From NCBI GenBank assembly GCA_027972325.1, contig JAPMOS010000017.1, positions 62,001 through 126,000 on the forward strand: a DNA stretch of 64,000 bases. The letters run 5' to 3'. Each line of letters starts with the position of its first letter. The stretch's first letter is position 1. This DNA is from Paratrimastix pyriformis. Taxonomy: Eukaryota; Preaxostyla; Paratrimastigidae. The translations under genes and the position numbers were made by a program. This document shows positions 1,417 to 64,000 of the stretch, piece after piece. The notes under the pieces were generated by a model. That model was not told the origin of the DNA and ran no database searches. It worked only from the letters and a program-made list of their open reading frames with translations.

Positions 1417-4400
1417 TCACATGGCGGGTCCCCCGCCGCGCATCTGGGCCAGGATGGCCGCCAGCATGGCTTCGTCGGGCCCGCTGCTCGGCTCCTCGGG
1501 AGTCTCGGGGGCCGGGGTCAGATCCACGATATTTTCCGCCTCGCTGTTCGGTCCGAAGGGCAGCGTCGTCACGAGACGGCTCGGGGGGACAGGGCGCTCT
1601 AGATGAACCACGGCAGGCGACACAAGGCACGTGGTGAGTCCGCATTCAGTGCAAGAAGGCGGGTAGTGGGGTGCGGACCGTGGTAGTAGACGCGGATCGA
1701 TGGCTTGTCGAAAGCCGGCAGCATGGGCATGACGACGTCCTTCATGGCCGCGTGGGGGGGCAGCTCCAGGGTGCAGAAGGGCGCCTGAGGGTCGGCCGCG
1801 CGGGCCGGAGGGAGGGGCCCCACACGGAAGCGGACCCCGTGCAGGGCCGGGAAGGCCGGCTCCACGGGGCGCTCGGGGGCCTGGATCTGGATGGTCACCG
1901 CCGGTGCCCGGGCCATCGAGTCGGCATCTGGGGGCCCGGCGGCAGACCCGGCAGACCCGACAGGGGCAGAACGGAAATGCACTGAGTGGGCGACTGACCC
2001 AGGCGCCCGGGCGGCCCGGGGCGGGAAGGGTGATGGAGGGGGGCTTCCGGCAGACCCTGGGGCAGCTGATCGGCAGCGGGCGGCGGGGGGAGCACGTTGA
2101 GGGCGGCCAGGGGGACGTCCGTCAGCAGGGTCCGCCCTGCGCCCCCAAAGCAGAAGGATGACCATCAGAGGCCCCGACCACGGCCCAACCCGCCCAACCC
2201 ACACCCTCCTCCTCCTCCTCCTCCTCCTCCTCCTCCCCATCCGGGCACGGGGCCGACCCTCGTGGTGGGCCTCGAAGGACTCGGTCCAGAAGTCAGACTG
2301 GAAGACGGGGAAGAGCTGCTCCAGGGAGGCCGCCTGGGCCACGAAGAGCCGGGCCATCCGGTCGCCCGTCCGCCCGTTGACGAAGGTCACCGCCGCCATC
2401 CGCGTGGGGTCGGGGGCGCTCAACAGGGCGCCCTCCTGCAGGCGGGGACGGGGCGTGGGGGGGTGCGAGGCGGTGAGCGGTCCGTCATCGTTCAGCGTGC
2501 TGTGTGGCTGTCGGGCGGGGGCGGGGCGGACCTGGGGCTGGGCCACTGCTGCCAGGGCGGCGCCCTCGGCCTCGTCAAGGGAGAGCAGCTGCTGCCGGGC
2601 GGCGGCCCCCTTGGCCAGCACGGCCGCCAGGGCCCGGACAGCCTCGGGGTGGGTGCCCGAGGGGTGCATGGGGGCGCCCTGGAGGACAATGGCGATGGGA
2701 TCCCGGGGGCCGGCGCCCTCGCTCAGGGTCCGGATGGGGTCCCGCACGTCGACCCGGCTCCCTGCCCGGCACCCCCAGGGCCCGGCACCCCCATGGTCGG
2801 TGCAGCGGCCGCCCAGCAGGGTGAATACGAGGAGGGGAGGGAGGGGAGGGAGGGTGGGAGGGGTGGCCGGCGGGGCGGGGGCGGCTGGGGGCGGACCGTG
2901 GCCGCAGACGACCAGCACGAGGTCGGCCCAGCTGGTGCTCGCCGGGGGTCTTGCCTCCGTCCACGCAGTCGCCGCACAGGTCCACCGTCTCTGCGCCGGC
3001 CACGGGGCACAGGCCACGGGGCGTGAGGCGGGTGGGGGTGAGATGCAAGCGAGGAAGGGAGGAGGAGGAGGAGGGAGGGAGGAGGGGAGGAGGGAGGAGG
3101 GAGGAGGGAGGAGGGAGGAGGGAGGAGGGAGGGAGGGAGGGAGGGGAGGGAGGGAGGGAGGAGGGAGGGAGGGAGGGAGGGGAGGGAGGGAGGGAGGGGG
3201 CGCGGACTGCAGGTGTTGCAGTGGAACCAGTGCGGCGGGTCGGTCCGGCGGCAGCTGGGGCCGAGGGGAGCACACGGGCCGGGGACGGGCCATGAGCCGG
3301 AATCCATGAGGGGGGGGCGCAAGGGGAAGGTGCAATGTGAGGCAAGGGGATGCGTCGAGGCAGGGGTGTAGGGGTGTGTGTGTGTGTGTGTGTGGGGACC
3401 TGTCGATGTACGAGCCGCTGGCGTAGGGCGAGCCGGAGCGTGGGCACTCGGGGTGGTAGCTGGCCAGCTCAGGGACCGCTGCGCCCGCAGGAGAGCAGCC
3501 AGGCCATGATGAAGGGCAGTGCCGGTGCCGATGCCGGTGCCAGGGGCGAGGGGCGAGGGGCGAGGGGGCGGGGGGGGGGGGGTGCAGGAGAGCAGGGCGG
3601 GAAGAAGTACTGGGAGCGGGGCGGGCGGGCGGGCGGGCGGGGCGGGCGGGGCGGGCGGGCGGGGCGGGCGGGCGGGCGGGCGGGGCGGGGCGGGGCGGGG
3701 CGGGGCGGGGCGGGGCGGGGCGGGGCGGGGCGGGGCGGGGCGGGGCGGGGCGGGGCGGGCGGGGCGGGGGGGCGAGACGGGCACCAGCCTGACGAAGGGG
3801 ATCGAGCCGGTGAAGGGGCGATGAAATCCAGCAGCCGCAGCGAGTTGGCCACCACCAGCTCGGCAGTCGGCTGCCCCCCCCCCCCCCCCCCCAACCCCCG
3901 GCACCCCACCGCCAACGGCAGACGGCAGGCCATGAGGCCCATTGAGTGAGCACAGGCGACGAGGGTGTGGCATGTGAGGGGGCGCGTGAGGGCATGTGAG
4001 GGGGCATGTGAGGGGCCACGTGGGGGCGGACCTCCTCGAGGCCCTCGTACCTGAGGACGATCGAGACCAGCCCCGTTTCGGGCTTCTCGGGGACGGGGCC
4101 CGTCCAGACACCTGCCCCGCCCGTCCCACCGGATGCCGCCCACCATCATGACGAGGAGGCCGTCAGGCCATGTTGCCCCAGCGGCGATCGACGGGCGCGG
4201 GGCGGCGGGGGTGCGTGCAGGCGCAGGGGATGCGGGGCGGGGCGGGGCGGGGCGGTGGGGTGCGGACCAGCCAGGTCGATGTCGACCCCCTCGGGGAGCC
4301 GCAGGTCGGCGATGGCGATCTCGCCGGGCAGGTTCCGCCCTGCAGGGGCCCCACAAGGGGCAGCGGACAGGACAGCGGGGCAGCAAGAGCAGCGCCTGAG

Positions 4401-7201
4401 TCGCGCGCCCATCAACTGCAGCCGCGGCGGCCCGACCCTCCCCATCTCCATCTCCATCTCCCCGGCCGTTCCCCCGGCCCGTACCACATGCTTCCCCCCG
4501 GACGGGCCCACCTCGGGCAGGTGGCGGACCCTGGTAGCGGGCGGAGCATGAGGCCACCTCGGGGTAGTTGGCGATGAGGGGCCGGAGGACGTCGCTGAGG
4601 GTCATGTTGACCGGGACCCGCACCTCGGCCAGCGGGGCCGACCCGGGGGTGCGCCGCTCGAGGAGGTGCAGCCGCATGTGGATCTTGGGGTACACAACGG
4701 GCGGCCCGCGGGGCGCCGCCCCGCCCGCGCGGAGGAGCTCCAGCGATGCCTGCACGACCGTGCTCAGGGCAGCCCAGTCCTCCTCCAGCGAGCGCAGGGT
4801 CACGTCTGCAGAGGGCGGGCACACACGTCACCCCCACATCCCCGATGGGTGAGCCCTCGATCGGTCGGGGGCGGCGCGCAGGCGGCGCGCAGGGGCGCAC
4901 GAGGAGGCGGAGGGGCGGACCGGATGCGGTGAGGTTCTCGAGCCACGAGGGGCGCCGGTGGGTCCACAGGCTCGGGGCGGGCGACTCGGCCATCCCTGCG
5001 GCCCCATCCGCACGCGCGCCCCGCGGGCGCCCCAAAGGTCAGCCGGCCCAGATGGCGGCGGGGGGCCGGGTGGCGGCGGGGGGCCGGGTGGCGGACCGGG
5101 GAAGAGGGCCGCCTCGAGGGCCATCATGACCGCCGCGAAGTCGGCCGGCTTGGTGGCCGCCTCCAGCCGCGTCCGCAGGCCCGCGGCCACGTCAGCAGGC
5201 AGCCAATCTGGGCACCCCCAAGGCAGCAGCCAAAGCGGCGATGATGAGCCCAGCCCCAGCCCCAGCCCCAGCCCCAGCCCCAGCCCCAGCCCCAGCCCCA
5301 GCCCCAGCCCCAGCCCCAGCCCCAGCCCCAGCCCCAGCCAGGGGGCGGGAGCGGCATGCGGACCCGATGTGCGTGCGAGCTCGTTGAGGGTCTGCATGAT
5401 GGGCTCGCTCAGGCTCTGGGGCTTGGCCCGCGCCCTGCGAGACGTGCCATGGACCGTTTGGGCTGGGCAGCAAGCCGAGAAGGGCAGTGGGGCAGGGTGG
5501 CATGGCATGGTGTTGTGTGGCATGGGGTTGCATGGCATGTGGTTGTATGGCATGGGGTGGGGTTGCGTGGGGGCAGGAGCGGCGGACGGGGGCAGGATGG
5601 CCTTCTCGAGCTCGTCCATGGCGGCCTGCAGGTGGCCGAACGTCTGGGCGGTGGCCACCTGGCGGCGGAACTGGTGGTGCCCTGGAGGGTTGGAGAAGAG
5701 GATGGAGCAGAGGAGGGTTATGGAGGCCCGGACAGTGCTCGGAGGACGGGTGCCCGGTCGGCTGGGAGGGCGGATGGATGGATGGATGGATGGACGGACG
5801 GATGGATGGATGGATGGATGGATGGATGGATGGATGGATGGATGGATGGACGGATGGGAGCTTGGCAGCGGGGCGGGGGCGGACCGACGAGGACGAAGAT
5901 CTGCTGGAAGGCCTCCGGGGCGAAGGCGTCCAGCAAGTGCATCAGCAGCGCCTTGAACTGGTCCACCTGCACCGCCACCGCCACCACCAGCCCCCCGCAT
6001 GGCGACCCATCGGCCCACCGTTCGATGGGAACGACCAACCACCGGCCGGCCGGGCAGCCCCACCATGGCGGATGGAGGGGAAAAAGGGGGATGGCGGATG
6101 GAGGGGAAAAAGGAGGATGGCGGATGGAGGGGGAAAAGGAGGATGGCGGATGGAGGGGGAAAAGGAGGATGGCGGGGCGCGGGCCTGGGTGGCCTGGGCG
6201 AGGAGGATCACCCACCGGTCGCGGTCCATGCGCCAGCCGCGGTTGAAGGCGGGCCACTTGATGGCCATCTCGAGGCCCAGCATCCGCTCGGCCAGGTTGG
6301 CCGCTTGGTCTGCGTGCCCGCCCCCGCCCCCGGCCCCGGCCCGCCGTCAGGTCCGACCGCACACACACACACGCACACACATGAAGCCGCAGCGCAGGGG
6401 TGGGGGTGGCGACAGACAGCCGGGCGGGAGGGCGTCCGAGTGGGCCGGGGCGGCCGGGGCCGGGGCCGGGGCCGGGGCCGGGGGTGCCGGGTGCTCCTCG
6501 GGGCGGGGCTGCTGCCCCTGGGGCTGCGCCTCCTCGGGCTCCTCGGGGGTCGGAGCGCACTGGGGGTGGCTCTCGAGCCACTCGCGGATGAGCCGCCGCA
6601 GGGCGAAATTCTCCGTCAGCGTCTGCGAGTCGAGCGGCTGGTTGGTCAGCGGCGACTTGGGGGCGCCCGTCGAGTGGGCCATCCACTCGGTAATGGCGAC
6701 TCTGTCGTAGCTATGGCCCTACAAGAAAGACAATTCTCATACAAAGGGGAGGAAAGCCGGAAGACGGACATCGGCCGCCACGACGGGGTCGCGCATGAGC
6801 TCCCTCGTAATGGGGCACAGGAAGTCGGGTGGTGGATCGTTGGGGTTCCCGGCAACCGGTGGCACCGCCGACTGCGTTGCGACGGTGGTGGCCGGCGTGC
6901 CACTCGGTGAAGGATTGGCCGAAAGGGGGCTGCCCACAATTTCCATCAAAGCAGCTTGAAGGAAGGGAGGAAGACGCCATTGCTCCCAAGCATCCTTGGG
7001 AGACTCTCGCAGGAGTTTGGCGGTCGTCGCTGTACGAATCATTTGTCGGAAATGTCCCACTTGACGCTCATCGGGCGTGAGACCCGCGTGTCGGGCCGCA
7101 GCCATCATAAGATAGTAGATTTCATCTTTTTCTGCCGCCGTCAGGGGAGTATCAGGGACCTGAGCGCTGGACTGTCCCTGGCCACCAACAAAATTACCCA
7201 T
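1417..7201 (-). CDS. U-box domain protein with repeated C-terminal modules (probable E3 ubiquitin ligase)
   Basis: The N-terminus (ATG at 7201, [14 protein letters not shown]) leads into a U-box: [19 protein letters not shown], then after an intron (6719-6769, GTCCGT...AG) [13 protein letters not shown] and PLTNQPL. U-boxes recruit E2 enzymes to ubiquitinate substrates. Downstream exons carry alpha-helical-looking segments (about 5900-6300, 5590-5680, 5110-5215). They are followed by modules with an 'xIRxHLLE...VRVPxxMSLxDVLxPLI' pattern that could be ubiquitin-like beta-grasp folds (inference). The last intron (1599-1678, GTCCGC...AG) joins IRVYYH to [16 protein letters not shown], and the protein ends GGGPAM-TGA at 1417-1419. 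Middle exon borders are approximate; many 5' sites read GTCCGC (near 5890, 5095, 4915, 4264, 4028). Splitting into two genes cannot be excluded. The family beyond the U-box is not recognised. Confidence 0.65.
2206..2239 (+). repeat. (CTC)n microsatellite in intron
   Basis: A run of CTC triplets within a probable intron of the U-box gene; it reads as a GAG run on the transcribed strand. Confidence 0.8.
3056..3200 (+). repeat. GGAGG/GGGA purine-strand tract
   Basis: About 145 bp of almost pure purine made of GGAGG and GGGA units, inside a U-box gene intron. The complementary pyrimidine strand is the transcribed sense and could act as a very long polypyrimidine tract (inference). Confidence 0.85.
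3620..3765 (+). repeat. (GGGGC)n / GGGCGGGC G-rich tandem repeat
   Basis: GGGCG units grade into about 20 perfect GGGGC pentamers. It lies in a U-box gene intron and would form G-quadruplexes on the plus strand. Confidence 0.9.
5249..5340 (+). repeat. (CCCAGC)n hexamer repeat
   Basis: About 15 copies of CCCAGC in a probable U-box gene intron between the [10 protein letters not shown] exon and the [11 protein letters not shown] exon. Confidence 0.9.
5770..5850 (+). repeat. (GGAT)n tetranucleotide repeat
   Basis: About 20 GGAT units, a few reading GGAC, in the intron after the exon ending IFVLVG (5' splice site GTCCGC near 5888, minus strand). Confidence 0.9.
6064..6172 (+). repeat. ~27-bp minisatellite, 4 copies
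   Basis: Four near-identical copies of a unit containing GGCGGATGGAGG and a short A-run, inside a U-box gene intron. Confidence 0.85.
6452..6484 (+). repeat. (GGGGCC)n hexanucleotide repeat
   Basis: About five GGGGCC units. On the minus, coding strand the tract reads as Ala-Pro just after the U-box exon, so it may be translated or lie at an exon/intron edge. Confidence 0.8.
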
Positions 7202-7517
7202 GCCTCGGAGAGAAAGGGAGTGGTCCCAGAGGGTGAGTCCATAAACCCTCTGAGGGGGACAATTCGATTTTCGGAAGAAAAGGCCGTTTTTCTTCGTCCC
7301 CCGGCTTCCGAAGCCTGCCCAGGCCCACCCAGGGGTCATTGGAAACCCGCTTTTTTTTTCCCGGAAAGCCCACAACAGCCCGCAGCAGTTGCCCAAACTT
7401 TTATGGGGCTGACGAAGAGCACCAACGATGTGTGATGCCCGCGATATCGCCGAGCTGGTTCGCCACAATTGACCGGTTTTTCTCACCGCTTTTCAAAACA
7501 CATACCCCTCTAGTTAC

Positions 7518-7697
7518 CTTGGAAGGCGTCTCCATGTTCTGCAAGTCCACAGGCTGGGCATCGACCCGGCATAGGATGTCGTCAGCTGGTCGGTAAGTTC
7601 TCTTCGGGCCCTCGAATCTCCCCAATATTTTTATTACAATAGACGACCCTTGAACATCCCCCCCTTCGTGGGACCCCCCACACTTTTTTTCCGACAT
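7518..7697 (-). CDS. Unassigned exon, 60 codons
   Basis: An ATG at 7697 opens MSEKKCGGSHEGG and runs through KRTYRPADDILCRVD to a possible 5' splice site (AAG|GTAACT at 7517). AT-richer flanks resemble intergenic DNA on both sides. It could be a first exon of the U-box gene or a small gene of its own. I do not recognise it and found no certain partner exon. Confidence 0.3.
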
Positions 7698-7798
7698 CAC
7701 ATTCCGCGATCTGCGGGGTCTGCGGCAGTTTTCTCTCTCCACATTCTTTTGACTCAAAAAAATCTTTTCGCGCAGGCAGGCGAAGCTATTTATAAAGG

Positions 7799-10700
7799 TC
7801 AGTGCCTGGTGAGCATGACAGGGCGGAGCCCAGGGGGGGGAGGGACCCCTCCAACGGCCCTTGGGGGCATCCCAGGAAGGGGGAGTGGTGATGGAAGGTT
7901 GAAGTACTCTGGTGGTGGCTGGGGAATGTGGGGCGCGAAGGGTGCACATGCGAATGGGGCGTACGGGGCGTACGGGGTGCATGCGAACGGGGTGCATGCG
8001 TACGGGATGCATGCGCACGGGGCGCACGGGGCGTACGGGGCGTATGCGTACGGGGCGTACGGGGCGCATGGGGCGCATGGGGCGCATGGGTCGAAGGCGC
8101 CGGTCACCCCGGGAAGGCATGGAGGTGCGCCTGCGCCTGGGAGGGGTGCGCCTGGGAGGGGTGCGCCTGGGAGGGGTGCGCCTGGGAAGGGTGCGCCTGG
8201 GGGGGGTGCGCCTGGGGGTGCGCCTGGGGGTGCGCCTGGGAGGGGTGCGCCTGGGGGGGGTGCGCCTGGGGGGGGTGCGCTTGGTGGATGCACTTCGTGA
8301 GCGATGGGTGCGGAGTGGTTTGCTTGGGGGTCTGGGTTGGGGGGTGTGTCTGCCGGTGGCTGGGGCGACGGTGCAGCGCGCACCACGGGTGTACCCGGTG
8401 GAGTGGGCGAGGCTTCATCGTCATCCTTCTCCGGACTTGCGCGGCTTTTTTTTCGACCCCCAGACGACTTCGAAGCCTCTGCTCGGCGTTTCCGGGACAG
8501 GGCCCGTTCTTGCCGGGCCTTCTCCTCGTATTGCTGCCTGGCGGCGCGCCATTGCCACTGCTTCACTGGCAAGTCCTGGTTCAACTTGAAGCGGAACAAG
8601 ATATTCGGAGTGGACCCGCGCAGTTGTCGTGCGTCCAGCGATTTGACTGTCTGTACGGCACGTTCAGACTGCACATTGCTGACCGGCATGGCATCGTAAA
8701 TTGAATGCAGGATCACCTCGAGGGCCGGATACTCCTCGATGGGCTTCCCACCGGCCAGCCCCTGGAGCTAAGCCAGCCAACAGGCCCAACAGCGGAGTGA
8801 GCCCACCATGGAGGTGGCGAACAGACCACGACCTGCCACCAGGGCGAGCGCAACAAGCTGTGCACGGGGTGCGCGAGCGACGCGTCGTCGGAGCAAGGCC
8901 TGCGTCCCCCAACACCTTCGCTGCTTGGCCCTGCCAAATGTTCTCCCTTGTTTCCACCAGCAGCTCCCGGGCCACCTGTTGGGTTTCCCTCTTGTCGCAG
9001 AGGGCCGCAGGGGAGAATGGTACATGCAAGTACCGCTCGAACCGGGAGATGTGGGAGCGCAGCACAGTTTCCGCTGCCTGCCGACAGAGTTGCGGGATGA
9101 ACTGCGAGTCGCCGATGTGAATCCCGGAGGTGAGCTTGAAGGTGGCTTCGGGATGGATGGTAGCCTCCTCCAGGAGGCGTCGGGTCTCCTTGAGCCTGTG
9201 GTATAACAGCATCGACCTGGAGGGCGGTGAAGGGCCATGAGAAATGTGACCAACCCCCACACACACACACAGGGTGACCGACCGGTTGCTGCTGCTCATT
9301 GACCAAACGAGGTCCTCTCTCAGCCGGCGGGCCGCCTCGAGATATGCAAACATCCGGGCAACGACAGTTTCATCGCTGAGGATGGCCAGCACCGTCGAAA
9401 GGTCCTTGCCCAGGGGGTCTCTCCGCCGGGCGGTGAGCAGGGGGGCTCTCTCGTCTTCCTCGGGCTCATCTTCGATCTCCTCGGGTTCTTCGGGCGGCGC
9501 TGGTGCAGGTCTTTTTCGGAGACTGTATCTGGCTGTCGGCTTGGCGGCTGGCGCTGGTGCCTTGCTGGCGGCCTCCCGCTTGCGCCGCCTCTGCTCCCGG
9601 ATCTTGTGATCTTCCAATTTGGCGCTCTCATGGAGGTAGGAGCGCAACACAGGAAGCAGGTCCGCGAGCCGGTTGTTGTGCAGGTCGAATGTTGGGTGCG
9701 ATGCTGGGCCTTGGGAAAGCAAGTAGATGATGACGTCTAAAAAATAGTTGAACCTAATTTTCCCATAATTTTTTTTTGTCCCATAATTTTCGGTGTCGGA
9801 CCTGCTGTCCACCCCATTGGGCATCTCGGATGGGCACACCTCGTGGATCTTTCGGTAGAGGTCGGGGTCACGGCGCACCAGATTGGAAAGGGTCTCGAGC
9901 ACGAGGGGGATAATGCCCTTCTTGGCCCCGGGGAAGAACGCCGCGGCGAGGATGATGTCCCCGGGGCTATTGAGTAGATCCCTACCAAGGTGTCAGAGCA
10001 CAGAGTTGAAAGGTGCACAGACTTCGCCGCGTTGTCGATGGTATGTGAAATGCAGATGATCGGGTAGATTGTCATGTTGGTCCGCCGCCTCATGAGGGCC
10101 CAAAGCCCATTCACGGCACCAGTATTTGTGGAAGCCCCATCACCCATCCCCAAATCACCTTCTTCGCGCCCGCACGCCCCAGCACTTCCTCCAGCCGGTC
10201 GGCGATGGTCGTTGCATCTTCTTTGCCGAGGAAGGCCATGTCCGCCGCGTAGGTCTGTGGCTTCGCCAGCGCGTTGAAGGCGGATGAATTGTGGATGTTT
10301 CTGCTCACCTCGTCGTCTTCCTTGTTTTTGGCGTCCGATCCCTGCTGCTCCTCAGGGGGGACGTCCGGCATCTTCCACTGGTCGGGGACTCGGTGCTCGT
10401 CCAAGGCCGTCAAGAGACTCGTTGCCTCCCCCGTGATGCTTCCCGAGACCGAGGTGATGAGGACCACCAAGAACCCCTTTCCTACGCCGCGGAAGGAAGG
10501 GAAGATGGGGTCAGTATACGATGTTCCGGTGGGTGGTGGGCTCGCCGCCACGTCCTCGGCCACCAGTTGTCTCCTCCCCCTCCCGTCGTCTTTCACACCA
10601 GTGTGCATCGTTCTCCACTCATCCATGACCCGCAGACCTGTGCGCATGGCCTGCCGGGACGTGAAGGTTCCATTGTCCGTGAGAAGGGTGCAGAAGCAGG

Positions 10701-13713: not shown

Positions 13714-14834
13714 TTATGCAGCGGAGGCGAATCCCAAATAAAGAAGATAAAGTAGATGAACTGGCATCCCCACCAGGAATGGAATGGCGCCATCGCGTAC
13801 GCGTGGCGTCCGCTTGAAGAAAATGAGTCCCTATAATCACAAGATTGAATATGAACGGCGAGCCGTGGAAAAGTTTCCAGACCAAATGACCCGATGAGAG
13901 ACACCCGAAAAGGATGCACCAAAAAAGCATGGCAGGAGGGATGAGTAGAGAAAGGAGCATCATAGCAACATAACCGAAGAGAGAGTATCCCTATTGGAGA
14001 TGAAGATTGGTGTGGTGTGAGGAACAGTGTGGCAAGCGGCGAACCGTGGCCGAGACGATTTCAATCAAGCTCAATTGGGTCTTGCAGAGAGCCGCAATCC
14101 CCCACATTAGGATGGTATACAACATGAAATAGGGCAGCACAAGTGCAAAGCTGCTTCCGAGGAGAGCTGCGCCACCCTGCTCGCAAAGAGGGTCAGCTGA
14201 ATGCTTTGAAAGAGCTTCCCGGACCCCAGTGATGCCGGTGGTCTTCATCCGGATGTTAATCAGGGCGATCAGGGTGAAAAGACACATGAGGGGCCCATAA
14301 AAGTCCGGAGGGCCCTCGACCAAATGCATGGGAGACGGGATAATGGAGTACGCGAGCCTGTGAGCAAAAAGAGTTACCTGAATAATGAGGAACACGAGCA
14401 GACCGCTTCAGAAGATCGTACGCGGGGAGGTCAAAAAATGGGCGGAAGCTCTCATAATCAGTGAGCCTCTGGAACACCCCGTTGGCTTTCGTTTTCGTCG
14501 TGAGGAAAATCTGGGGGGAAACACGTTGTTATACTCGTCGATCGAGCAGAGAAATGCGGACGGTCTGAGCAAGTTGGTTGGCGACCTGGCTTTGAATCCC
14601 TCCTAATACCGAAGGTCCAGTAACTCCCAAGATTGGAGCAATCACCGCCGGAAGCGAGTTCGCAGCGGCGGGAGACGGAGTGGAATTCAATTCAAGGACC
14701 ACAGTCCCGTTCCTGTCCGAAGAGGAGGTGGCAACATCAGCAGTTTGAAACCATACATCGCCCTTTCCTGGTGCCGGCCCAGAGGCATCAGGGGCCACAG
14801 CAGCCGGCCCGGTTTCGGCAGCCTTAATCTCCAT
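13714..14834 (-). CDS. YIPF3: YIPF3-like Yip1-domain Golgi membrane protein
   Basis: Five exons: 14834-14562, 14510-14404, 14357-14045, 13990-13883, 13830-13714 (918 nt, 305 residues, TAA). Introns begin GTCCGC, GTCTGC, GTTCGC and GTCTGG and are 46-54 nt. The N-terminal ~95 residues are cytosolic and Ala/Pro-rich. SFRPFFDLPAYDLLKR-LAYSIIP precedes the membrane domain. FYGPLMCLFTLIALINIRMKT matches the YIPF3 motif containing YGPL, VFTL and MKT. Further membrane helices include YFMLYTILMWGIAAL, GYSLFGYVAMMLLSLLI, PAMLFWCILFGCL and a last helix FLVGMPVHLLYLLYLGF, giving about five TM segments. YIPF3 works with YIPF4 at the cis-Golgi. Human YIPF3 is longer (350 residues). The exon chain keeps frame throughout, which makes this one of the firmest gene models here. 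Confidence 0.9.
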
Positions 14835-15031: not shown

Positions 15032-22998
<7,967 letters not shown>

Positions 22999-37178: not shown

Positions 37179-37682
37179 TCACGAAAGGCGATCGAGACAT
37201 TCCATATAGACAACAGAAGCACCCCGAATCACCTGGAAGAAAGATGTGCAATTGGATCCAAATGAACTGCCCTTTGGGAAAAAAACAGACCACCATCCCA
37301 AGAGGGTTTTGGTGCTCGGGAGAAATATCTTCGATGGTCTCATCGAGGACAATGTTCATAAACTGGTCGAACCCCCGCATGGTCCCAATCACCTTACGGT
37401 TGCCATTGAGCTTCACTGTTGGGGAAACAGCGGAAATTGAGGAGAGAAAAAACAGTCATGGCCCCATAAAAACCTGAGTGAATCGGAGAAACAGACAAGC
37501 AAGACGCTTATCCAAATACCTTCAACAAGAAAAAGAAGAAAAGCACCGTGTGAGCCGCCTGTGAGAACGGGTGGTGCAAAATTCAAACAGACTTCTTAAG
37601 ATCGGGGGCAGCGCCTGCCGGAAATTAGAGGCGCCCGAAGAATCGAGAACATAAAACGCAAGAGCGGACCAAAATATATCAT
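37179..37682 (-). CDS. SNRPG: Small nuclear ribonucleoprotein G (SmG)
   Basis: Five exons: 37682-37670, 37614-37593, 37519-37497, 37415-37291, 37232-37179 (237 nt, 78 residues, TGA). Introns of 55, 73, 81 and 58 nt begin GTCCGC, GTCTGT, GTCTGT and GTCTGT and end in AG. The spliced protein aligns along its length with human SmG (76 residues): PDLKKYLDKRLALKLNG, the Sm1 motif GTMRGFDQFMNIVLDE, and the Sm2 motif GMVVIRGASVVYMECLDR. SmG is one of seven proteins in the Sm ring around U1, U2, U4 and U5 snRNAs. The tiny first exon (MIYF plus one base) is less certain than the rest. The 5' end lies 87 bp from the divergent cathepsin-like gene. Confidence 0.93.
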
Positions 37683-37769
37683 GAGCAACACAAACAGGAG
37701 GAAAGACCTTTTGCAGCGGACATCTTTGGAACCTTGGCAGTCGCAGCTATCTTTTTCTTATGCCGCACA
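37683..37769. promoter_or_regulatory. 87-bp bidirectional promoter region SmG / cathepsin-like gene
   Basis: Two start codons face away from each other across 87 bp. Any promoter and both 5' UTRs must fit here or overlap the genes. No TATA box is clear. Confidence 0.6.
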
Positions 37770-40700
37770 ATGGCTTCTGCTTGGCTTTTCTTGACATTTG
37801 GAATTGCTTTCGCCACGCTTTCGCCGTATGACCTTTCTCTTCAGCAAGGCGAGACTGAAGAGCTCAACTTTTTTCAGTTTCACACAGTTTCACAAAATAA
37901 CATCACCTCTTCGCGACTTTTGCGTGAGGAGGCCAATAGATGGTTGAAAATCGATGAACATCTTCAACTTCCCGAGTCATTCAATTTTTTCGATGCTTTC
38001 CCGGAATGTTCCACCAAACCTCGGGACCAGGGCACGTCTGTTTTCGTTTTCGCACGCTTTTGATTTCTGGTTGGGTAGTTGTGGAAGCGGCTATGCCCAT
38101 GCTATGGCGGGAGCATTCGGTGCTCGACTGTGTAAGGCCATGGGCGGCTCCACTGGGGAGTACTCGACCCAACGCATCATGGACTGCCCTACCTCTGTAT
38201 TTGAGAACGCGGCGGGGAAGCATATGCAAGACAGCGGTCTGGTTGGGATCTTCTGGTCTTGTTTCGATCGATGACATACCCCAATAGACGGCTGCAGCAG
38301 CGGCCTGACCTGGCTCGTGGCCTTAGGCCGGACCCCAGGCGGCGGGGAGGCCTTTGTTCGGGAGGAATGTTCGCCTTACCAATCGGCCTTGTACGCCAAG
38401 GGGAGTGGGAGACCCCGGCCTTCGTGTCCTGCCGTATGCCCCGGTCTGCGCCTAGCCCCTGAGTTTCTTTTCGGGGTTTCGGTTCGCCCGGCGTCCATCC
38501 GTCGTGCACCTAAAACTGAGGTCATGGCTCAGATTCCGCTCTGTCGGCCGCCTCGTGCGCCAATGGGTGGCTACAGGGACAGGCGCGCCTCCGCTGCGCC
38601 TATATATCGAGCCACAACCGGCCGATCTGGGTGCCATCGGGCAGGTCGAGGCCTACAAGCGGGCCCTGCTCGAGCGAGGCCCCATGCCCGCCAACTTCTA
38701 CGTGTACTGGGAGGCCCTCCTCAGGGTGGCCGCTCCTGATTGGACCTACCGCCCCACGGTCCGTGCTTTCTGCTGATCGTCGCGCTCACCAGACTTTCTC
38801 TCCGCCGGCAGGCCAACGACACTCTGGTCGGTGGCCACTCGGCCCTGCTTGTGGGCTGGACGGCCAACACATGGATCCTCCAAAACAGGTCTGTCTGTCG
38901 CGCGCCCCGGCCGAGCTGCCCGTTTTCCGCTTCGGCCCACCGATCACGTGACGGGTGTGCATCTTTCTCATGCTCTTTGGGTCACCCGGCCGGATCTAGT
39001 TGGGGACCCGACTGGGGCCTGGCCGGCCAGGGCCTTTTCCACGTGGGTATGCGGGACCCGCTGGCCCTGCTGGAGGGCTTTCTCTACGCGGCGCCGGATC
39101 TGGTGCCGCAGCTGCCTGACTTCCTCTTTACCGAGCCGCCCCCAGGGGCGCTCCTGCTGCCCGGCCAGCGCGTCCGTCTGCGGTGGCTCACCCGGCCCGC
39201 CCTTCGGGCGGATGCGCCCCTGGTGAATATCACCTTGGACGCAGCTGGGGTCAACCTGGGCATCGTGGCCGCCTCCCTCCCGAACTCGGTCTGCACCACC
39301 CCACGCCCCCTGCCTGTGTGGCTGATGGGGTGCCACCGCGGGGGGTACCGGCAGGGCGTCTACGAGTGGACCGTCCCGGCCACCCTGCCCGAGGCCCCGC
39401 TCTACAGGCTCACGATCGCAGCGGGCGTGGCGGCAGCCCACTCGGAGTACTTCGGTCCGGCTGCTGCACTGCCGCTCGCCCCCCCACCCCCCGCGTCGGG
39501 GTGATGCCCCATCAACCCCCCGAATTGCTGTTCATCCGCTTTGGGGACTCGCCTCCGACCTGGAGCAGCCCTGTCCCGCTGGGGCGTCACCGTCGTGGCG
39601 AGCCCGGCCTACTCGGAGCCGGGCGACGCGGGCCGTGTCGGACCTTCGGCCAGCCGTGAGACGGCGCTAGCTGTCGGGCAGGCGGTCAGCATCGTGTGGG
39701 GCCTGGTGGTGGGGTCAGGCCCCGGGGGGCTGGTCGACGTGGACTTGGTCAACATCACCCAGCCGGAGGTCCTGCTGTCCATTGCCTCCAGGCACAACAC
39801 CACGAGCTCCCAGGTCCGCTCTGCCACGCCGCCCCAGATGCGCAGGCGCCAACGGCGATGGCGGAGCGCTCACGTCGGGCCGCGTGGGTATGGGCGGTCA
39901 TGCTTGCCGCAGGGCCGCCTCGTGTGGACGGTCCCCCCGGGGCTTCCCCTAAACGTCCCCCTCTTCGTCCGGGTCCGCCCCTCCGAGGCCACCGCCGGCA
40001 TGCCGGGTGCCGCGGGTGTCCTCTCCTATCCGATCCGGCTCCGCGCGCTGCCCCCGGTGGCTCTGGGGGGGCTCGAGGGGGCCGCCTACGAGTACGGGCA
40101 GACTCTGACCCGGCCCTGGCAGCTGGGGCCGGGCCTCGCATCGGCCGCTGTGACGGGCCTGGTCTGCACCCTTCAGAGAAGGCGCCCCGACTGACGGCTC
40201 CGTTGTTGGTGGCTCGGCTGTCCTTTGGGGGGGTGGCAGGTTGTACGCGGGGCGCAGGTTCCCCTGGCCTCCCAATGCAACTCCACGGTCGGTCCTGCTG
40301 GTCGTGTCCTGCCTCGCCTTCCTCCTCCTTCCCTTCGGCCGGCCAGCCAATAGTCACTCCGTGTTCCGACTGGCTGTGCAGACGGCCCCCCAGTGCGGTC
40401 CGCTTGTCCTGCCCACACTCGAGGCGCCCACTCGCTACGCGGCCTTGAGCCTGGAGACCCCCGCGGGCCGAGTCCTCTCGCGACCATTCGTCCTCTCGCC
40501 TGGCCTCCGTCTGTCCGGCCGTCCTGAGCGCGACGACCGGATGGTTTTCATCTCCCCGGCTCGCTGGGGGCATGTCGTCGCAGACCTGGACAACCTCACG
40601 GCCACCCCGGCGGCGAGCCCCGCGGGCACCCAGCTCGCCATCGGCTGGTCTACGGCCGGCCTGTGGGACTACGTCGACCTGACCCTGGCTCCTCACCCGG

Positions 40701-52939: not shown

Positions 52940-52977
<38 letters not shown>

Positions 52978-55682: not shown

Positions 55683-56018
55683 GATTGGAGGGAGAGCAAG
55701 CTGAGTTTCTCCTCTCTGGCCCTGGGGATGCTGACCCGAGAGCGAAAAACGATGACAGCTTTGTTCTCCTCACGGAAAGTGCGTTCAACGTTACTCCACT
55801 GCGTACATGTCACCCCACATATTTGCATACTGATTTTGTGGGAGATGGTTCTGTTTTTCGGTTGGCAATCTCTTCGAATTGGAACGCATGGGAGCCGGAT
55901 CGCAAAAGTGGGGTGGGATGGGATGGATGGATGATGGGAGACTTTTACCCTCTACGAAAGAGAAGGAAAACGATAGGTACAAAAGAAAAACACAAAAACC
56001 AAGACAGAAGCCCGCCAC
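55683..56018. promoter_or_regulatory. Spacer between PHD gene stop and BRR2 start
   Basis: 336 bp, AT-richer, between two minus-strand genes. It must include the BRR2 promoter. No motif or RNA gene was recognised. Confidence 0.5.
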
Positions 56019-56379
56019 TCACCGGCCCTGGGGCGGTTGTGGGGTCGTGGGGGTTGGCTGAAGGGTGGCGGAGGGGGTCGGTAGGCCGCCAAAGACGAAC
56101 CGTCCCCGGGTGGGGAACCCCTGGGCGGTGGGGAAGCCCACCATGCGCCGGTCGCCCATGGTGAAGGTCATGTAGGCCATGGCCGGGGGCGACGAGGCCG
56201 AAGGCAGCTGCATGAGCATGTTGCCCTGGCCCCCCTGCATCAAGAAGGGGGTGCCCATCATCACCGGGACCGCAGCCATGCGGGTGCCGGGGAGCATCCC
56301 TACTCGACCCATGACGTTGCTTGGGCTAGGCGAGAAGGCCGGTGTGAATTTGGACTGCTGGGTCTGTTGTTGTTGCTGC

Positions 56380-56411
<32 letters not shown>

Positions 56412-57560: not shown

Positions 57561-57619
57561 TTTTCAAAGCCTCTGAAAAAATGTGCAACTCAACCCTGGT
57601 TGATGAAGGGTTGCAAGAA

Positions 57620-57666
57620 AGCTGGTGTCCAAAACCCGGCAAGGTACCCAAAACCCGGCATATGGC
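57620..57666 (+). repeat. Left terminal inverted repeat of pogo-like element
   Basis: Starts AGCTGGTGTCCAAAACCC and ends TATGGC. The ATG within this last motif (57662) is the likely transposase start codon. Confidence 0.85.
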
Positions 57667-59873
57667 AGCGCAGGCAGATGAAAACCCGCGGCATCTCACT
57701 GGTGCGAAGCTTCTGGACCTTATGAAAAGCGAGGAGTTCGTGGGGAAGCCTCCCGCCTACGTTGCCGTCAAAATTTTCCCTCGGTATGACATCTCCCAAC
57801 ATGCGCTATGCGATCTGGTGTGTTTCCTCCTTTATTGCTCCTCTGATTCCTTTAGTTCGACATTACGCATCAGCAATTTAACCGAGCCAAGGAAGCTATT
57901 GACAATGGACGACCCGTGGGGAAGAATGGCCGGCCAGAATCAGTGGTTCCCGAAGATGTCGGATTTGCCATCGATGTCGTTCAAAAAGCTACGAAGAAGG
58001 GCTCGACCACCGGTCAGCCGCATCCCAGTGTACGGCCGTCACCAGATCAAAAAACTCCTACAGCGGATCAAAGCACAGCACGCCTACGGACGCCGAATCG
58101 AACCAGTCCGTGGGTATGGGGGGAGGGGGGGGGAGGAGGGAGGGGGAGGAGGGAGGAGGAGGAGGGGGGAGGGAGGGAGGGGGAGGAGCGGAGGAGGCGA
58201 GTCTTGTCCACAGTCGCCATCTGTCACACGCACACACATTCCCCCTGCCGCCTCTCCATCTCCGCCCATAGGTGCGGAGGATTGATCGAACCGTGGTCCA
58301 GGCGTTTTTCAAGTTGCTCCGCGACAACAAGATCGAGGAGATCGATCGCCGCCTTTTGTTCAACTTTGACGAAACGATGTTATCACCCAAGCAGATGAAC
58401 CGATACAAAGTCATCTCTTTCGGCAACAAACGTCGCCCGACAAGCGACGATTTAGCCAAAACTCCGCACTGTACCGTGATCGCGGTAACCTCAGCCGCAG
58501 GGGGGATGCTGCGACCCCACCTCACATTTTCGAACATCATTTACCTGCCCGAAAAACTTCCCGAGCCTGTGGCGGAGCTGTTCGATTTTTCCAGTCCGTA
58601 CCCTCGATCGAATCCTTCATCTTTGACGTCGTAGGCACGGCGAGTGGGTGGACCGACACGGCCCTCTTGCACGAATACTTTGAGAGAACGTTTATCCCTC
58701 ACGTCCAAGCCGTGCGCGCCAAGATCGGCACAGACAAGCGCGCGATGTTGATTTGTGACGGTGCATCTACTCACCGGGTCGGTCCCTGCCTTGCCGACTC
58801 CATTCACCCCAAGTTTCTAGGGACTCAAGGAATTGCTGGCGCCCGCTGGTATCGACGTTATCTGTCTGCCGCCCCATTCTTCAACTGTGTTGCAGCCACT
58901 GGACTTGGCTGTATTCGGAGCCTTCAAGGTCTGCCAACTCCCCCACGCACAACCCACAAAACCCGCCCCACCCACCACCCCACCCCACTCCCACCCCTAC
59001 ACGCGCACACAAACACGCACATGCACGCACGGCAGGGGAAGGCGCTACACCTCCTGAAGACCATGAAACTCGCGGAGTGCAAAACGGTGACGGAGCGGGA
59101 TAACTTGCTTTTGGTTTGCCATGATGCCTGGCTCGCAGCAAAGGGCACACTGACCAATTTGAATGGCTGGGCCAAGTCTGTGCACCTCCTTTTCTTTTTG
59201 TTCTGATTATTCTCCCAGGAGTGGAATTTCGCCTTTCGACCCCGAGGCACCGCTCCGGAACCCATGCGTTGTGTCGCGCTCGCTCCCTTCCCCACCTGTT
59301 GTCGTTTCGAAAAGGGGGCCTCAAACCCGCATTCGCGGGAAGGTGCTCACGCCCACCCCGGAGGTTGTGACCCTGCCGGACTCTTCGAACTCGGACTCCC
59401 CCGACTCCAATCCGCCATGGGACGCGTCCTGGTGTCCACCACCGTCTTGGATGCCGCCACCCTCATGGGTGCCACCCAAGGAGTGGTGCCCGCCCCCCAG
59501 CTGGATTCCTCCGGCCGACTGGCTACCACCAGTGGGCTGGACGCATCCGCACTTTCGTTGCCCCCCCACACCTGTCTTCTCGTCCACCCCGACCGGCTAT
59601 CCGTTGGCGTTTCAGGCGACACCTATGCGCGCACCAGCCCCCCGCGCACCGCCAACCCCTTTCATCATGGTCCCCTCCCCTGCCCAGGCCCACTTAATGT
59701 GGCGGCAGTTCCCCACTCCGGCCACTCCCCGGCCGATGCCCGGGCCCGCCCCGTGGATGGACCCACTTCAGTCGCCGCCACCCTCTCCCAGTGTCAGAAT
59801 CACACCTTTGGGAATGGCGCCTCAATTGCTGGGTGGACAGGGTTTTGCTGGGCAAAAACATGCGAGAGGGTAA
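57662..59873 (+). CDS. pogo-like DDE_1 transposase with host-type introns and Trp/Pro-rich tail
   Basis: ATG at 57662 (MAAQADENPRHLTGAKLLDL) begins inside the left inverted repeat. N-terminal helices continue across an intron (57818-57855) to FDITHQQFNRAKEAIDNGR. After an intron starting GTCCGT (about 58108) comes VRRIDRTVVQAFFKLLRDN. The catalytic triad reads LFNFDETM (D1), LICDGASTH (D2) and LPPHSSTVLQPLDLAVFG (D3), the classic pogo/Tigger DDE_1 layout. Introns at GTCCGT (after FDFSS), GTCGGT (after ASTHR), GTCTGC (after FGAFK) and GTCTGT (after NGWAK) restore one frame to the TAA at 59871-59873. The C-terminal tail repeats W-C-P-P-P-S-W-like motifs near 59410-59560. Host-like introns in a transposase are unusual and could mean domestication. 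The exact joins in the N-terminal third are uncertain. Confidence 0.8.
58118..58200 (+). repeat. GGAGG purine tract in transposase intron
   Basis: About 80 bp of GGAGG/GGGA units within the intron that begins GTCCGTGGG. Confidence 0.85.
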
Positions 59874-60052
59874 ATTGAGCGTTTTCGTTGTTCTTTTGGT
59901 GTTTTCTTTGGGAGAGCCTTCTCAATGCATGAATGCCGCCTCATCGATCGCTTCCGGGCCGGAAAAAAACAACAGCACACTCAAAGGTTGTCAAGTGGGC
60001 CATAATATGGTGCGAAAACGCTCGAAAACTCGAAAAACTCCGCACGAGTTTC
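59874..60052. other. 3' part of pogo-like element
   Basis: AT-richer sequence between the transposase stop and the right inverted repeat; likely a 3' UTR. Confidence 0.6.
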
Positions 60053-60099
60053 GCCATACGCCGGGTTTTGGGTACCCTGCCGGGTTTTGGACACCAGCT
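60053..60099 (-). repeat. Right terminal inverted repeat of pogo-like element
   Basis: Reverse complement matches 57620-57666 at 45 of 47 positions. Confidence 0.85.
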
Positions 60100-60178
60100 C
60101 GATGACGCCGCGTCCCACTCTCTTGGATCTCCCCGATTTGACGAGCGAACAATGTATAGAAGAGAAACGCTGTTTTTC

Positions 60179-60194
60179 GGGGGGGGGGGGGGGG
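60179..60194 (+). repeat. Poly-G run
   Basis: About 16 G just beyond the phosphatase stop codon. Confidence 0.9.
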
Positions 60195-60198
60195 ATGC

Positions 60199-61257
60199 CT
60201 ACCAGGCCTTGGAGACGACACCAACCTGGGGGAAGTGAAAAATTGCCGCGAAGCACAAGAAAAAGTGACGAACCTTGTCCCACATATCGGGGGTCCAGTT
60301 CATGATCTTAACTGAGAACTTGCCGTCGTGATACTCAATCACATTGACGCTAAAGGTGACAGACGAGTGTAGCACATGGGTTGACGGAAACGCTCGAAGG
60401 CTCACAGACCATCCAGGTTCCTGGCCCAGCTGCCAGTAGAAGGACTTCGGGGCTCCCATGAGGTCGCACAGGACGGCCCGGGTGCAGATTTGATGGGTAA
60501 CTACCGGACCAGAGGGGGCATGGTGATGGGAATGTGACGAAGGGACACACATGGGAACAGACTCACTGCAACCTGCTGCCCGGGGAACTGCTCCACCAGC
60601 CGGAGGAGCGACGCCCGGAAGCGCTGAGAAAGACCGTCCAGAGTTTCGCCATCGAACTGGGCCTGGTCGATGTGCTCGCGGAACATCTATTCATGGCGAG
60701 ATGGGTCAGGTGGGCGAGGCGGAGAGCTGACCTTGTATCCCTGAGGGTCGGAAATAGCAATCTCTTCGGTCGTGTGGCCTTCCCACTGGAAAAGAGAAAA
60801 TAAAAAGCGGCGAAAGACGGTAAGAAAAATGGCTCGAAGAAAGACACAGACAGGGCCATAGTTCGCGCTCGTGTAGCCATCGTCGATTGTGACGTAGGGG
60901 GCAGCGGGGTGATACATATCAGCGGGCGCAGGAACTGGGGGACTCTGCTTGGCCAGGTGGGGAGCGGCGATAATGTTCGCTGTTTCCACAGCGCGAGGGA
61001 GGGGGGAACAAGCAACATGGGCAATGGGTTTTGCAGCGAGCAAATCAGCAACGCTCTGGGCCTGCCGACGGCCCAGATCAGAAAGGGGAACAGTGCTCTT
61101 CCCGCGGAAGCGCGAGCCCTCGTTAAAAGCAGTCGATCCATGTCTGAACAACGAGTGAATGAGTCGGTGCTGAAGTTGTTTACAATATCCAGTCGGACCG
61201 AATCAGATAGATGACGGTGGGCCCACGAGAAACAGGAGCAGGAGCAGGGGCGGACAT
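60199..61257 (-). CDS. Histidine phosphatase superfamily protein (phosphoglycerate mutase-like)
   Basis: Seven exons: 61257-61199, 61143-60852, 60785-60732, 60686-60563, 60500-60410, 60349-60274, 60225-60199 (723 nt, 240 residues, TAG). Introns of 45-66 nt begin GTCCGA, GTCTGT, GTCAGC, GTCTGT, GTCTGT and GTTCGT. The first intron splits the catalytic motif, giving TVIYLIRHGSTAFNEG. The phospho-accepting His is followed by PLSDLGRRQAQ, VACSPLPRAVETANII and NYGPWEGHTTEEI. The second catalytic His is in VAVITHQICTRAVLCDLMG. The fold fits cofactor-dependent PGM-like phosphatases of branch 1 (fructose-2,6-bisphosphatase or broad-specificity types). The substrate cannot be told from the sequence. 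Its ATG is 114 bp from the divergent RING gene. Confidence 0.9.
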
Positions 61258-61371
61258 CTGTGCAAACGATGAACGGAAGTCGGCTTTGTGCCTATCACCG
61301 GTTCGGGATGCATCGCGTCAAGTCAAGATTCACGTCGTTAGGGGCCCCCTGGTCCACAAGAACTTCTTTTC
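61258..61371. promoter_or_regulatory. 114-bp divergent promoter region, phosphatase / RING gene
   Basis: A short spacer between two head-to-head start codons. No motif was recognised. Confidence 0.5.
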
Positions 61372-64000
61372 ATGACTGCTGCTCTCCAACAGTTCCAACT
61401 TGAGTCGGACGCTTTTTGCGATCTTTTCCCCGACTTCCGTTGTGGTTTGTCTTTTCCGTTTGAACACTTTCCTCACAACTCAATGGTGATTCTTGCCAGC
61501 GATTTGTCTTGCCATGTTTCACGAACCGATTGTCGTTTGTCCCAACGGACACACGTTTTGCAAGAGTTGCATCGCAGCCCTCAGGCAAGCTGACGGCCTT
61601 GCTCGTCGTTCTTCGCACTGCCCTGCATGTCGGGTCGATATTTCTCTTATGCAAGATTATTCAAATCGTCTGCATCAGATTTTTTTCCCCTCATATCTTC
61701 ATCATCCGGCTGTAGTCGTTGCCCAGCAGGTGATTGACGGGATTTTTCTCCCACGCAATGACTCGGAGCGCCCTCCGTCGATTGATGGAATCTATGGGGC
61801 ATATTCTTTCCCCCTTCTCCAAACGATCGCAACCATTTCCCACCGACTGGTAACCTCCGGCGGTATCCAACTCGTCACTGCCTTCAGCCAAACCGGCGAG
61901 GTGCTTCATGTCAGATTGGAACTTTCCGCCGCCCAGAACATTCTGCCCAGACTGCAGCAATATCGGGTGCTCTGGCGGCTGGCGGTTCCCAGCCCGGACG
62001 GGTCCGAGGCTCCCGCTGTCCACGGTCTGCCCTTGGGAGCAGCGGGCGGCCTTCACCACCTCTGCGGTAGCCTTCACCCACGACCTCGCCATCAACGGGT
62101 GCCTGCTGGCTGGTCTGCAACGATCCGCGTCGGTCTCTGTCCCCGGTCCGCCCCAGCCGCCCTGCCCCGGTCGCTTCACCTCCACGTTCGTCTAGTCCCG
62201 CTGCGGCCCGGCCAGCAGGGCTCCCTCGATGGGTACCTGGTGCCGCTGCTGCCGGACCACCAGCCGCCCACATGGGCCCACGGTCTGGCTCGCCTCTGGC
62301 CCCTCGTCTGCCCCCGCCGGTCGGTGCCCGTTCGTCTGACACTTAGCTGTGCTGCGCTGCGCTGTGCTGTGCTGGTCTCTCCTGGGGCGTGACGTGCCGA
62401 TCTGCAGTGGGCCTGCTGGAGCGCATCTGGGGCCTGGTCGACCACCGGCCATCCCCCCAAGCCACGGCGGGCGACGGTGGCGTCCCGTTGCCGCGAGGCT
62501 GCCCGCTGCCCGGCCCCCCGGCCCCCACGGCCTGTCCCCGGGCGGACCAGCTGGGCGAGGCCCTCCGAGCGGCCCTGCCCCTGCTGACCTGCCCGCCCCT
62601 GCGGGCCGCCCTCCTCGGTCCGCGCCGCCCTATCCATTCCCCTTCCTCGCTCCCTCCGTCCCCACCCATGACATTGTGCCGCCCTCCCTCCTCCCGCGTC
62701 TCGCTCCTCATCGCCCGTCTGTCCCGCCCGCCTGCTTTTCCATCCAGGCATCCTCTCGGCCGCCGTGGCACGTCCGTGCCTCTTCCTGGCGGCCTGCCCC
62801 CCCGCCAGCCCCCCGAGGGCCCTGGCCAGCAGCGCCAGCCGGGTCCCCGCCGCCGCCGCCGCGGCCAGCGAGCCCTCCATCGACCTGCCGGCCCTGCTGC
62901 TGCCCCCGCCGCCCCGCTTTGGGCGGCCCCCGCTCAGCCTGCAGAGCGTGGCCGTGGCCGCGCAGCCCCCGCCCAGCCGGGCGGCGCCAACCCTGCGATG
63001 GGTCTCACTCGGCCAGCTGCTGGCCACCCTGCCCGTGGGCAGCCATCACGGGGCCCGGCCCCTGGCGGCCACCCTGGTGGAGGCCCACCTCGCCGAGGCC
63101 CTGCGGGGGCTCCCAGTGGGCGGCCGGCTGACGGCTCCCGAGCGGGCCGCCCTCGAGCGCATCACGGGCCTGCCTGGACTGGCCCTGGTCCGTCAGGCCC
63201 GCCCCGGCCTTGGCCGCGAGCATCACGTCCCCTCCCCGCCCCCGCCCCCGCCCTTCGCAGACCCTCCAAGGGCTGGAGGCCGCCATGCCGGTGCTGCCCG
63301 ACGCTCCGTCGCTCCCCCCGGTCGCACCGGGCGGCCCATGCAGCGCCCTCTTCCCCGGCCCGCCCAGTGCCCCGCCTGCCCGCCTGCCGCCGCGGGCGGC
63401 TCCCAAGAGCGCCGCCCCGCCCCCCGACGACCTCACCGCCCCGCTGCGCCTGGAGCGCGACCGGGCCCGTGACGAGGTCTGCCTTCGCCACCCCTCCCCG
63501 TTGCGGGGGGCGCCAGTGGGCCGGGCTCGGCCACCCCTCACGGCCTGCTTGCCTGGGCTTGGGCCTCGCTGACAGGCTGCCGCGAGCGCCCGTGCCCTGC
63601 GCCAGCTGCGGGGCGACCTTGACGACGCCCGGGAGGAGCTCCGGCGCCACCGCCAGGCCGCGGCGGCCCACCGGAGCGAGTTGGACCAGGCCCGCACACA
63701 GGGGGCCGCCCTGGTGACCCAGCTGGCGGACCTCCGCCAGGCGGGCCGCGACCAGGAGGCCCAGCTGGACCAATGGCGCGCCCTGGTGGAGGAAGCCCGC
63801 CGCCAGCTGGAGGAGGTCCGGCTGCAGGTCCTCGCCGAGAGCCGCCAGGCCCGCGACCACCGCGCCCGGCTCGAGGGGGCCCTGGGCCAGGCACGCGCCC
63901 AGGCCGAGCAGGCACGCATGGCCGCCGAGGACGCCCGGGTCCAGGGGGCCCGCGCCGTGGAGGCCGCCCTGGCCGCGGCCCGGCAGGTGCTCGCCGAGGA
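61372..64000 (+). CDS. RING-finger / coiled-coil protein (continues past right edge)
   Basis: ATG 61372 (MTAALQQFQLESDAFCDLF) is joined through an intron (61445-61499, GTTTGT...AG) to complete a RING: RCAICLAMFHEPIVVCPNG, HTFCKSCIAAL, HCPACRV (C3HC4). RINGs of this type bind E2 enzymes, so an E3 ubiquitin ligase role is likely. The frame continues through QVIDGIFLPRND and LSAAQNILPRLQQYR. Several GC-rich exons follow (a TAVAFTHDLAINGCLLAGLQ block about 62060-62120, and an Ala/Pro/Leu-rich region to about 63475). An intron starting GTCTGC (about 63478) and ending CTGACAG (63575) leads into a long coiled coil (LRQLRGDLDDAREELRRH and onward) that runs off the window. RING plus coiled coil recalls TRIM-like proteins, but no B-box is visible. 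Middle exon borders are uncertain. Confidence 0.65.

Follow-up and report, generated by a model that had tools for sequence, protein, structure and literature searches.

The usual U1 small nuclear RNA (snRNA) pairs the sequence ACUUACC of its 5′ end with 5′ splice sites of the GURAGU type. In the Saccharomycotina, U1 candidates were reported in 227 of 230 genomes and in 9 of 10 outgroups with ACUUACC invariant, and the switches at splice-site position +4 described there accompany the loss of METTL16 and SNRNP27K (Parker et al., PMC10581693). According to the same source, U at +4 could be compensated by an A at position 5 of U1. Here, we describe a 64,000-nucleotide stretch of DNA, referred to as the window (bases 62001–126000 of the 680,034-base contig C79), from Paratrimastix pyriformis (Preaxostyla), whose introns start mostly with GTCYGY, together with the U1 and U6 snRNA genes found in the 56.06-Mb assembly of 495 contigs. 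The data make it very probable that the recognition code of the major spliceosome of this organism has been rewritten on both sides, with the sites turned into GTCYGY and U1 matched to them.

The P. pyriformis U1 shares with the usual one a full-length alignment to the Rfam family RF00003 (at a score below its gathering score), the presence of U1-C, and antiparallel complementarity to the sites of its own genome, while it differs in having AG instead of UU at nucleotides 5–6 and in facing GTCYGY instead of GTRAGT sites. As in the Saccharomycotina, position +4 moved from A to a pyrimidine, but in those yeasts U1 and U6 are described as invariant and both METTL16 and SNRNP27K as lost (PMC10581693), whereas in P. 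pyriformis U1 is changed, the two genes are present, and position +3 is changed too. The GUUUGU introns of Entamoeba histolytica also have pyrimidines at +3 and +4 and G at +5, but no U1 is reported as recognised there (PMC6018208), in contrast to the eight site-matching U1 genes of P. pyriformis, which also set it apart from the U1-less splicing of Cyanidioschyzon and Entamoeba. A naturally occurring U1 whose 5′ end is altered is known from the diplonemid S. specki, where it is described as an extra U1 with a C-stretch beside a normal one (PMC12621601), while in P. pyriformis all eight copies found are changed and the consensus has moved along. The non-GT/AG introns of Fritillaria borealis are likewise a genome-wide departure from usual splice sites, but the U1 5′ end is reported there as strictly preserved, with the change located in U2AF and N6-methyladenosine (PMC13326754). 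ACUUAC is also described as kept in Giardia with UAUGUU sites (PMC3510501), and the U1 5′ end as kept in nucleomorphs, even where introns are without a 5′ motif (PMC6461891). Among openly licensed PubMed Central papers, taken without their supplementary files, we found no report of the P. pyriformis case, and no other genome in which all U1 copies and the consensus have changed together.

5′ splice sites across the genome

Splice junctions were placed using a spliced protein-to-DNA aligner, in which any donor dinucleotide was allowed and the acceptor had to be AG. A human SmG sequence and eight CCT reference sequences were also aligned, and each CCT gene was assigned the best-scoring of the eight. 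The genes examined contain numerous introns, as exemplified by the 17 junctions within the stretch of PRP8 that could be matched to its Arabidopsis counterpart (79% identity). Although any donor was allowed, all 17 start with GT (GTC in 16, GTT in one) and have G at +5. In the eight CCT genes 67 junctions were obtained when GT was required and 69 when the donor was free; 58 of the latter start with GT and are identical to those of the GT-required set, while the other 11 are without a GT start and differ from the GT-required ones. When the deposited SmG and phosphatase proteins were aligned with the donor free, GT was chosen in 10 out of 10 junctions. The matrix was built from the 57 of 67 CCT junctions in which both flanks scored at least 10, and from 17 PRP8 and three SmG junctions without filtering (77 in all), to which 11 window junctions were added (six from a histidine phosphatase gene, four from a YIPF3-like gene, and the SmG junction at 37707). 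The resulting 88 junctions represent 12 genes located on 10 contigs, and the CCT ones among them were obtained with GT required.

The data showed that 74 of the 88 donors start with GTYYG, 65 with GTCYG, and 58 with GTCYGY, while none starts with GTRAG, which was also absent from all 87 junctions before filtering. Position +3 is C in 73 junctions, T in 12, and A, the only purine there, in three; position +4 is T in 46, C in 36, G in four, and A in two. G is found at +5 in 81 junctions and at −1 in 73, and position +6 is T in 48, C in 31, G in six, and A in three. Six tables gave no sign that +4 depends on other positions (smallest p = 0.13). On the acceptor side, C or T precedes AG in 81 of 84 introns. 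Hence, these introns retain the ordinary U2-type traits of GT..YAG ends and G at +5 and −1, and lack the purine at +3 and the A at +4. This confirms the unusual GTCYGY consensus proposed by a first-pass annotation of the window, whose observation is correct in substance.

It is extremely unlikely that the consensus is an artefact of hand-fitted reading frames, or that it reflects U12-type introns. The first of these could draw on one wrong site among the 14 testable ones listed in the first-pass annotation, but the deposited proteins and a foreign PRP8 gave donors of this kind with the donor free. The second could draw on a U12 snRNA candidate in the genome, but the U12-type sequence RTATCCTT is absent from the 88 junctions, and it occurs only six times in 301,128 bases scanned, in no case with a branch-site-like word within the next 600 bases.

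As a homology-free check, a codon model without any donor motif was trained on the aligned exons, and introns were predicted from coding potential under the condition that they start with GT and end in YAG. Of the 33 such introns predicted in 20 additional stretches of 10 kb, 15 are GTYYG, a class that makes up 7.5% of all GT (p = 4e-9); one is GTRAG, compared to 3.2% of all GT. In the window GTYYG was found in seven and GTRAG in none of 11 predicted introns. The same scan with a free donor was set aside, because the boundaries could not be placed (122 predictions, six with GT, five of those GTYYG). Enrichment of raw hexamers in 264 kb was also uninformative, as simple repeats dominate it. These repeats are dense, and the octamer TCGTTAGG occurs 75 times in the window and the 20 stretches (L013–L032), where about one occurrence is expected. 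Near the 3′ ends of introns CTRAY is not enriched (11 of 84 introns, 9.0 expected). A separate observation is that CTCAC is enriched there, with 18 of 84 introns versus 7.3 expected, even though the GUAGUA of U2 is retained.

The P. pyriformis genome paper describes gene finding with retrained Augustus, intron hints from RNA sequencing, and PASA, and its main text has two occurrences of the word "intron" and none of "snRNA" (PMC10703272). Both deposited gene models that were checked, SmG and the phosphatase, use GTCYGY-like donors, so the gene-finding pipeline of its authors had learned them.

The U1 and U6 genes and their fit to the sites

A search of the genome with the Rfam U1 model gave eight full-length loci (L001–L008) among 41 candidates scored, and a search with one U1 copy returned the same eight loci and one 31-base fragment. 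All eight genes have AUACAGACC in place of the normal AUACUUACC. The 5′ stretch across them is ATACAGACCTTGCTTGG, each carries AUACAGACCUUG, and ACAGACC stands in every copy where ACUUACC was expected. Nucleotides 5–6, which face positions +3 and +4 of the splice site, are AG and not UU in eight out of eight genes; AUAC and ACCUU are retained, so that the 5′ end departs from the usual one at just these two nucleotides, which fit the new site. In the alignment of L001 to RF00003 (positions 1–166, E 8.5e-15, 60.2 bits versus a gathering score of 69.5), AG lies under the consensus UU at 5–6, the first loop contains GAUCA, and the last stem contains GCGUUCGCGC.

The sequence TCCCATAA is located 60 or 61 bases upstream of each of the eight U1 genes. 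CCCATAA is also found at −66 or −67 of all four U6 genes, together with TATA or TATC at −31, and at a fixed place in the five U5 loci read out of seven found. Because the upstream element is shared with the U6 and U5 loci, the U1 genes look like living snRNA genes. More generally, (T)CCCATAA, located roughly 60 to 68 bases upstream, is a promoter word common to U1, U6, U5 (L040–L044), U2 (L050, L051), and the U12 candidate, and we take it to resemble the plant upstream sequence element. The U12 candidate itself (L049, C432:103343–103517, minus strand) aligns over the full length of 1–151 with 44.9 bits, versus a gathering score of 53, has AUGAGUAAGGAAAAUA intact, and is preceded by TCCCATAA at 62 bases upstream, although the 301,128 bases scanned showed no intron of the U12 type.

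The U1 5′ end AUACAGACCUU complements AAG|GUCUGUAU, and with AG at its nucleotides 5–6 it matches GUCUGU. Position +3 pairs with G6 of U1 in 85 of the 88 sites (73 G-C and 12 G-U pairs), while the canonical U would pair in three. Position +4 pairs with A5 in 46 sites, compared to two and four wobble pairs for the canonical U, and the pairing at +5 and +6 is the same for the real and the canonical U1. Over the 88 sites, the duplex energy averages −8.47 kcal/mol with the real U1 and −3.74 kcal/mol with the canonical core; the real one pairs better with 83 sites and worse with four. Among the 16 possible pairs of letters at nucleotides 5–6, AG ranks second on the 88 sites, and among 256 possible sequences of nucleotides 3–6, evaluated on the set of 77 sites, the real one is at rank 10 and the canonical core at rank 157. 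Thus the changed U1 5′ end predicted by the first-pass annotation is supported at the level of the genes, where nucleotides 5–6 are altered in all eight in the direction that restores pairing. Of the two genes that it proposed to look for, U1 has a 5′ end different from the usual one, and U6 is unchanged.

When the pyrimidines inside the introns are taken as the reference, U is preferred to C at +4 (p = 0.0095) and at +6 (p = 0.0008), which is what a plain facing A predicts, although C is still well tolerated. It could be considered that a modified adenosine in U1 or U6, for example inosine at A5 and A3 of U1, reads the C at +4 and +6, so that the functional U1 would be close to GCGGACC. Such G-like letters would pair better with the frequent C at these positions, but the preference for U is that of an unmodified A, and the ordinary U1 likewise has an A facing +6, which makes a modification of this kind very improbable.

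Four identical U6 genes (L009–L012) keep GATACAGAGAAG, and their site-binding box AUACAGAGA is unchanged. The complement of the U6 ACAGA is UCUGU, which the new site has at positions +2 to +6. As a consequence of this complementarity, the first seven letters of U1 and the U6 box are now identical, AUACAGA. The suggestion of the first-pass annotation that recognition leans on U6 or PRP8 may therefore be partly right. In its strongest form this would mean that U6, with PRP8, mainly recognises the 5′ splice site as the best complement of its ACAGA box, and that the U1 change is secondary or neutral. Besides the unchanged U6 genes, this would agree with reviews that place the commitment to the site at the hand-over to U6 (PMC11732430). 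On the other hand, decay would be expected of a U1 that is neutral, while here AUAC and ACCUU are kept, the two differing letters match the site, and all eight copies are alike; U1-C is also retained, and the G at −1 in 73 of 88 sites fits C9 of U1. Hence, recognition mainly by U6 appears doubtful.

The U5 and U2 sequences read are ordinary. Loop 1 of U5 is CGCCUUUUACU, and the branch-binding GUAGUA of U2 is unaltered in the two loci read of nine full-length ones. The genome encodes a U1-C zinc finger, a METTL16-type domain (PF05971, 64.5 bits), whose best PDB match is the U6 A43 methyltransferase (E 2e-11), and SNRNP27 (34.7 bits) with the RYRQYMNR end; the latter two assignments are based on domain and sequence matches. 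These matches bear on the explanation that, as in the Saccharomycotina, the +4 change followed the loss of METTL16 and SNRNP27K and that U1 played no part in it. The new +4 pyrimidine, U in 46 of 88 sites, is indeed the one seen in those yeasts. However, both genes are encoded in P. pyriformis and its U1 is changed, so the shift differs from the yeast +4 switches; ACUUACC is invariant in the yeast U1 and a change at +3 is outside the switch as described there (PMC10581693), while ACAGACC is found here. Accordingly, an origin of the yeast kind is very unlikely.

Introns of the window

At all 23 donor coordinates listed by the first-pass annotation, 19 on the minus and four on the plus strand, GT is present within the kind of hexamer ascribed to it. 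Fourteen of these junctions, in the SmG, phosphatase, and YIPF3-like genes, could be put to test, and 13 of them held. The claim that the listed sites alone give complete open frames in these three genes was borne out for the phosphatase and for the YIPF3-like gene, while in SmG the deposited model contradicts the first listed site, 37669.

The histidine phosphatase gene, spliced at six listed sites, encodes exactly the deposited protein P0241 (240 of 240 amino acids, 100%), whose alignment gave the same six donors with the donor free and with GT required. On the minus strand these are 61198 (intron 61144–61198, donor GTCCGACT), 60851 (60786–60851, GTCTGTGT), 60731 (60687–60731, GTCAGCTC), 60562 (60501–60562, GTCTGTTC), 60409 (60350–60409, GTCTGTGA), and 60273 (60226–60273, GTTCGTCA). 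The intron at 60687–60731 was also found by coding potential alone.

The deposited SmG protein P0001, aligned in both ways with the same outcome, requires donors at 37707, 37592, 37496, and 37290 on the minus strand. The first of these (intron 37615–37707, donor GTCTTTCC) replaces the listed site 37669. In the deposited model it starts with GTCTTT, and is thus without the otherwise common G at +5. The other three introns (37520–37592, 37416–37496, and 37233–37290) share the donor GTCTGTTT, and were also returned when human SmG was aligned to the window. When the donor was free, human SmG also produced a junction at 37787 near the N terminus, which was rejected as a spurious product of the aligner.

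In the YIPF3-like gene, also on the minus strand, the introns 14511–14561 (donor GTCCGCAT), 14358–14403 (GTCTGCTC), 13991–14044 (GTTCGCCG), and 13831–13882 (GTCTGGAA) together open a complete frame of 305 amino acids, while the unspliced frame stops after 101. The product matches Yip1 weakly (21.1 bits, under the Pfam cut-off of 28.6).

Origin and meaning of the probable rewriting of the code

If both sides of the code have been rewritten, GTCYGY, or GTYYG more broadly, would have become the ordinary 5′ splice site, and UU at U1 nucleotides 5–6 would have become AG to match. U1 would select the site through the usual helix spanning −3 to +6, with A5 and G6 replacing two Us, and the site would then be handed to U6, whose ACAGA box would read the same letters in a helix extendable to +3. 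In known systems the hand-over from U1 to U6 is carried out by PRP28. Both RNAs would read positions +2 to +6 with the letters AUACAGA, in which G would face +3 (C, or U by wobble), C would face the G at +5, and A would face +4 and +6, where U is preferred and C tolerated. No change of U6 would be needed, because its conserved ACAGA box already complements UCUGU. What is read directly from the DNA is the matrix of junctions, the sequences of the eight U1 and four U6 genes, and the complementarity among them; from these, the U1–site pairing and the hand-over to U6 can be presumed to take place.

The oxymonads belong to Preaxostyla. Sites resembling GTATG were reported in the oxymonad Streblomastix (PMC1501061). 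The change of U1 and of the sites probably arose in the P. pyriformis lineage, where GTATG-like sites could have drifted toward better pairing with the fixed U6 box, with C at +3 as the new element, and U1 could have followed this drift by two substitutions. We think that the sites changed first and U1 second, although other orders are possible. The chances seem evenly balanced that the sites of the whole genome shifted until they complemented the U6 ACAGA box, and that U1 nucleotides 1–7 copied that box. Such a co-change of U1 and the sites would be compensatory and natural, and it would point to U6, and not U1, as the RNA that sets the code.

Several points weigh against a code rewritten on both sides. 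The data come from one species, and the polarity of the change depends on the published Streblomastix sites. GG at U1 nucleotides 5–6 would on paper pair better than AG (−10.56), and the facing A of U1 cannot pair with the C present at +4 in 36 and at +6 in 31 of 88 sites. All eight U1 loci score below the Rfam gathering score (60.2 or less versus 69.5), and perfect identity among the copies begins with AATTC, five bases before the Rfam start, so that the exact start of U1 is taken from the Rfam alignment. That U1 is transcribed with the changed 5′ end is presumed from its genes. The coding-potential scan is noisy, as AC gave as many predictions per 10,000 occurrences as GT, and five other dinucleotides yielded 45–67% of the number obtained for GT. 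Finally, GTGAGT is the most enriched of the GT hexamers in the 264 kb, and GTCTGT the fifth; the excess of GTGAGT is located in the simple repeat GAGTGAGT, with 178 copies versus 4.7 expected.

The UU at U1 nucleotides 5–6 is reported as two pseudouridines in human and yeast (PMC3510501), and with AG at these positions the P. pyriformis U1 has no uridine left for either of them. On the practical side, gene finders that expect GTRAGT and the Rfam cut-off for U1 both miss such a genome. If U1 copies the U6 box, one word would be read twice, whereas in other organisms U1 and U6 use different letters for the same site, and the site would be handed over without a change of letters. The P. pyriformis case makes testable the shares of U1 and U6 in setting the splice site, the role of the two U1 pseudouridines, and the rewriting of a genome-wide code. 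While the yeasts moved their site preference without U1, P. pyriformis appears to have run the textbook suppressor experiment naturally.

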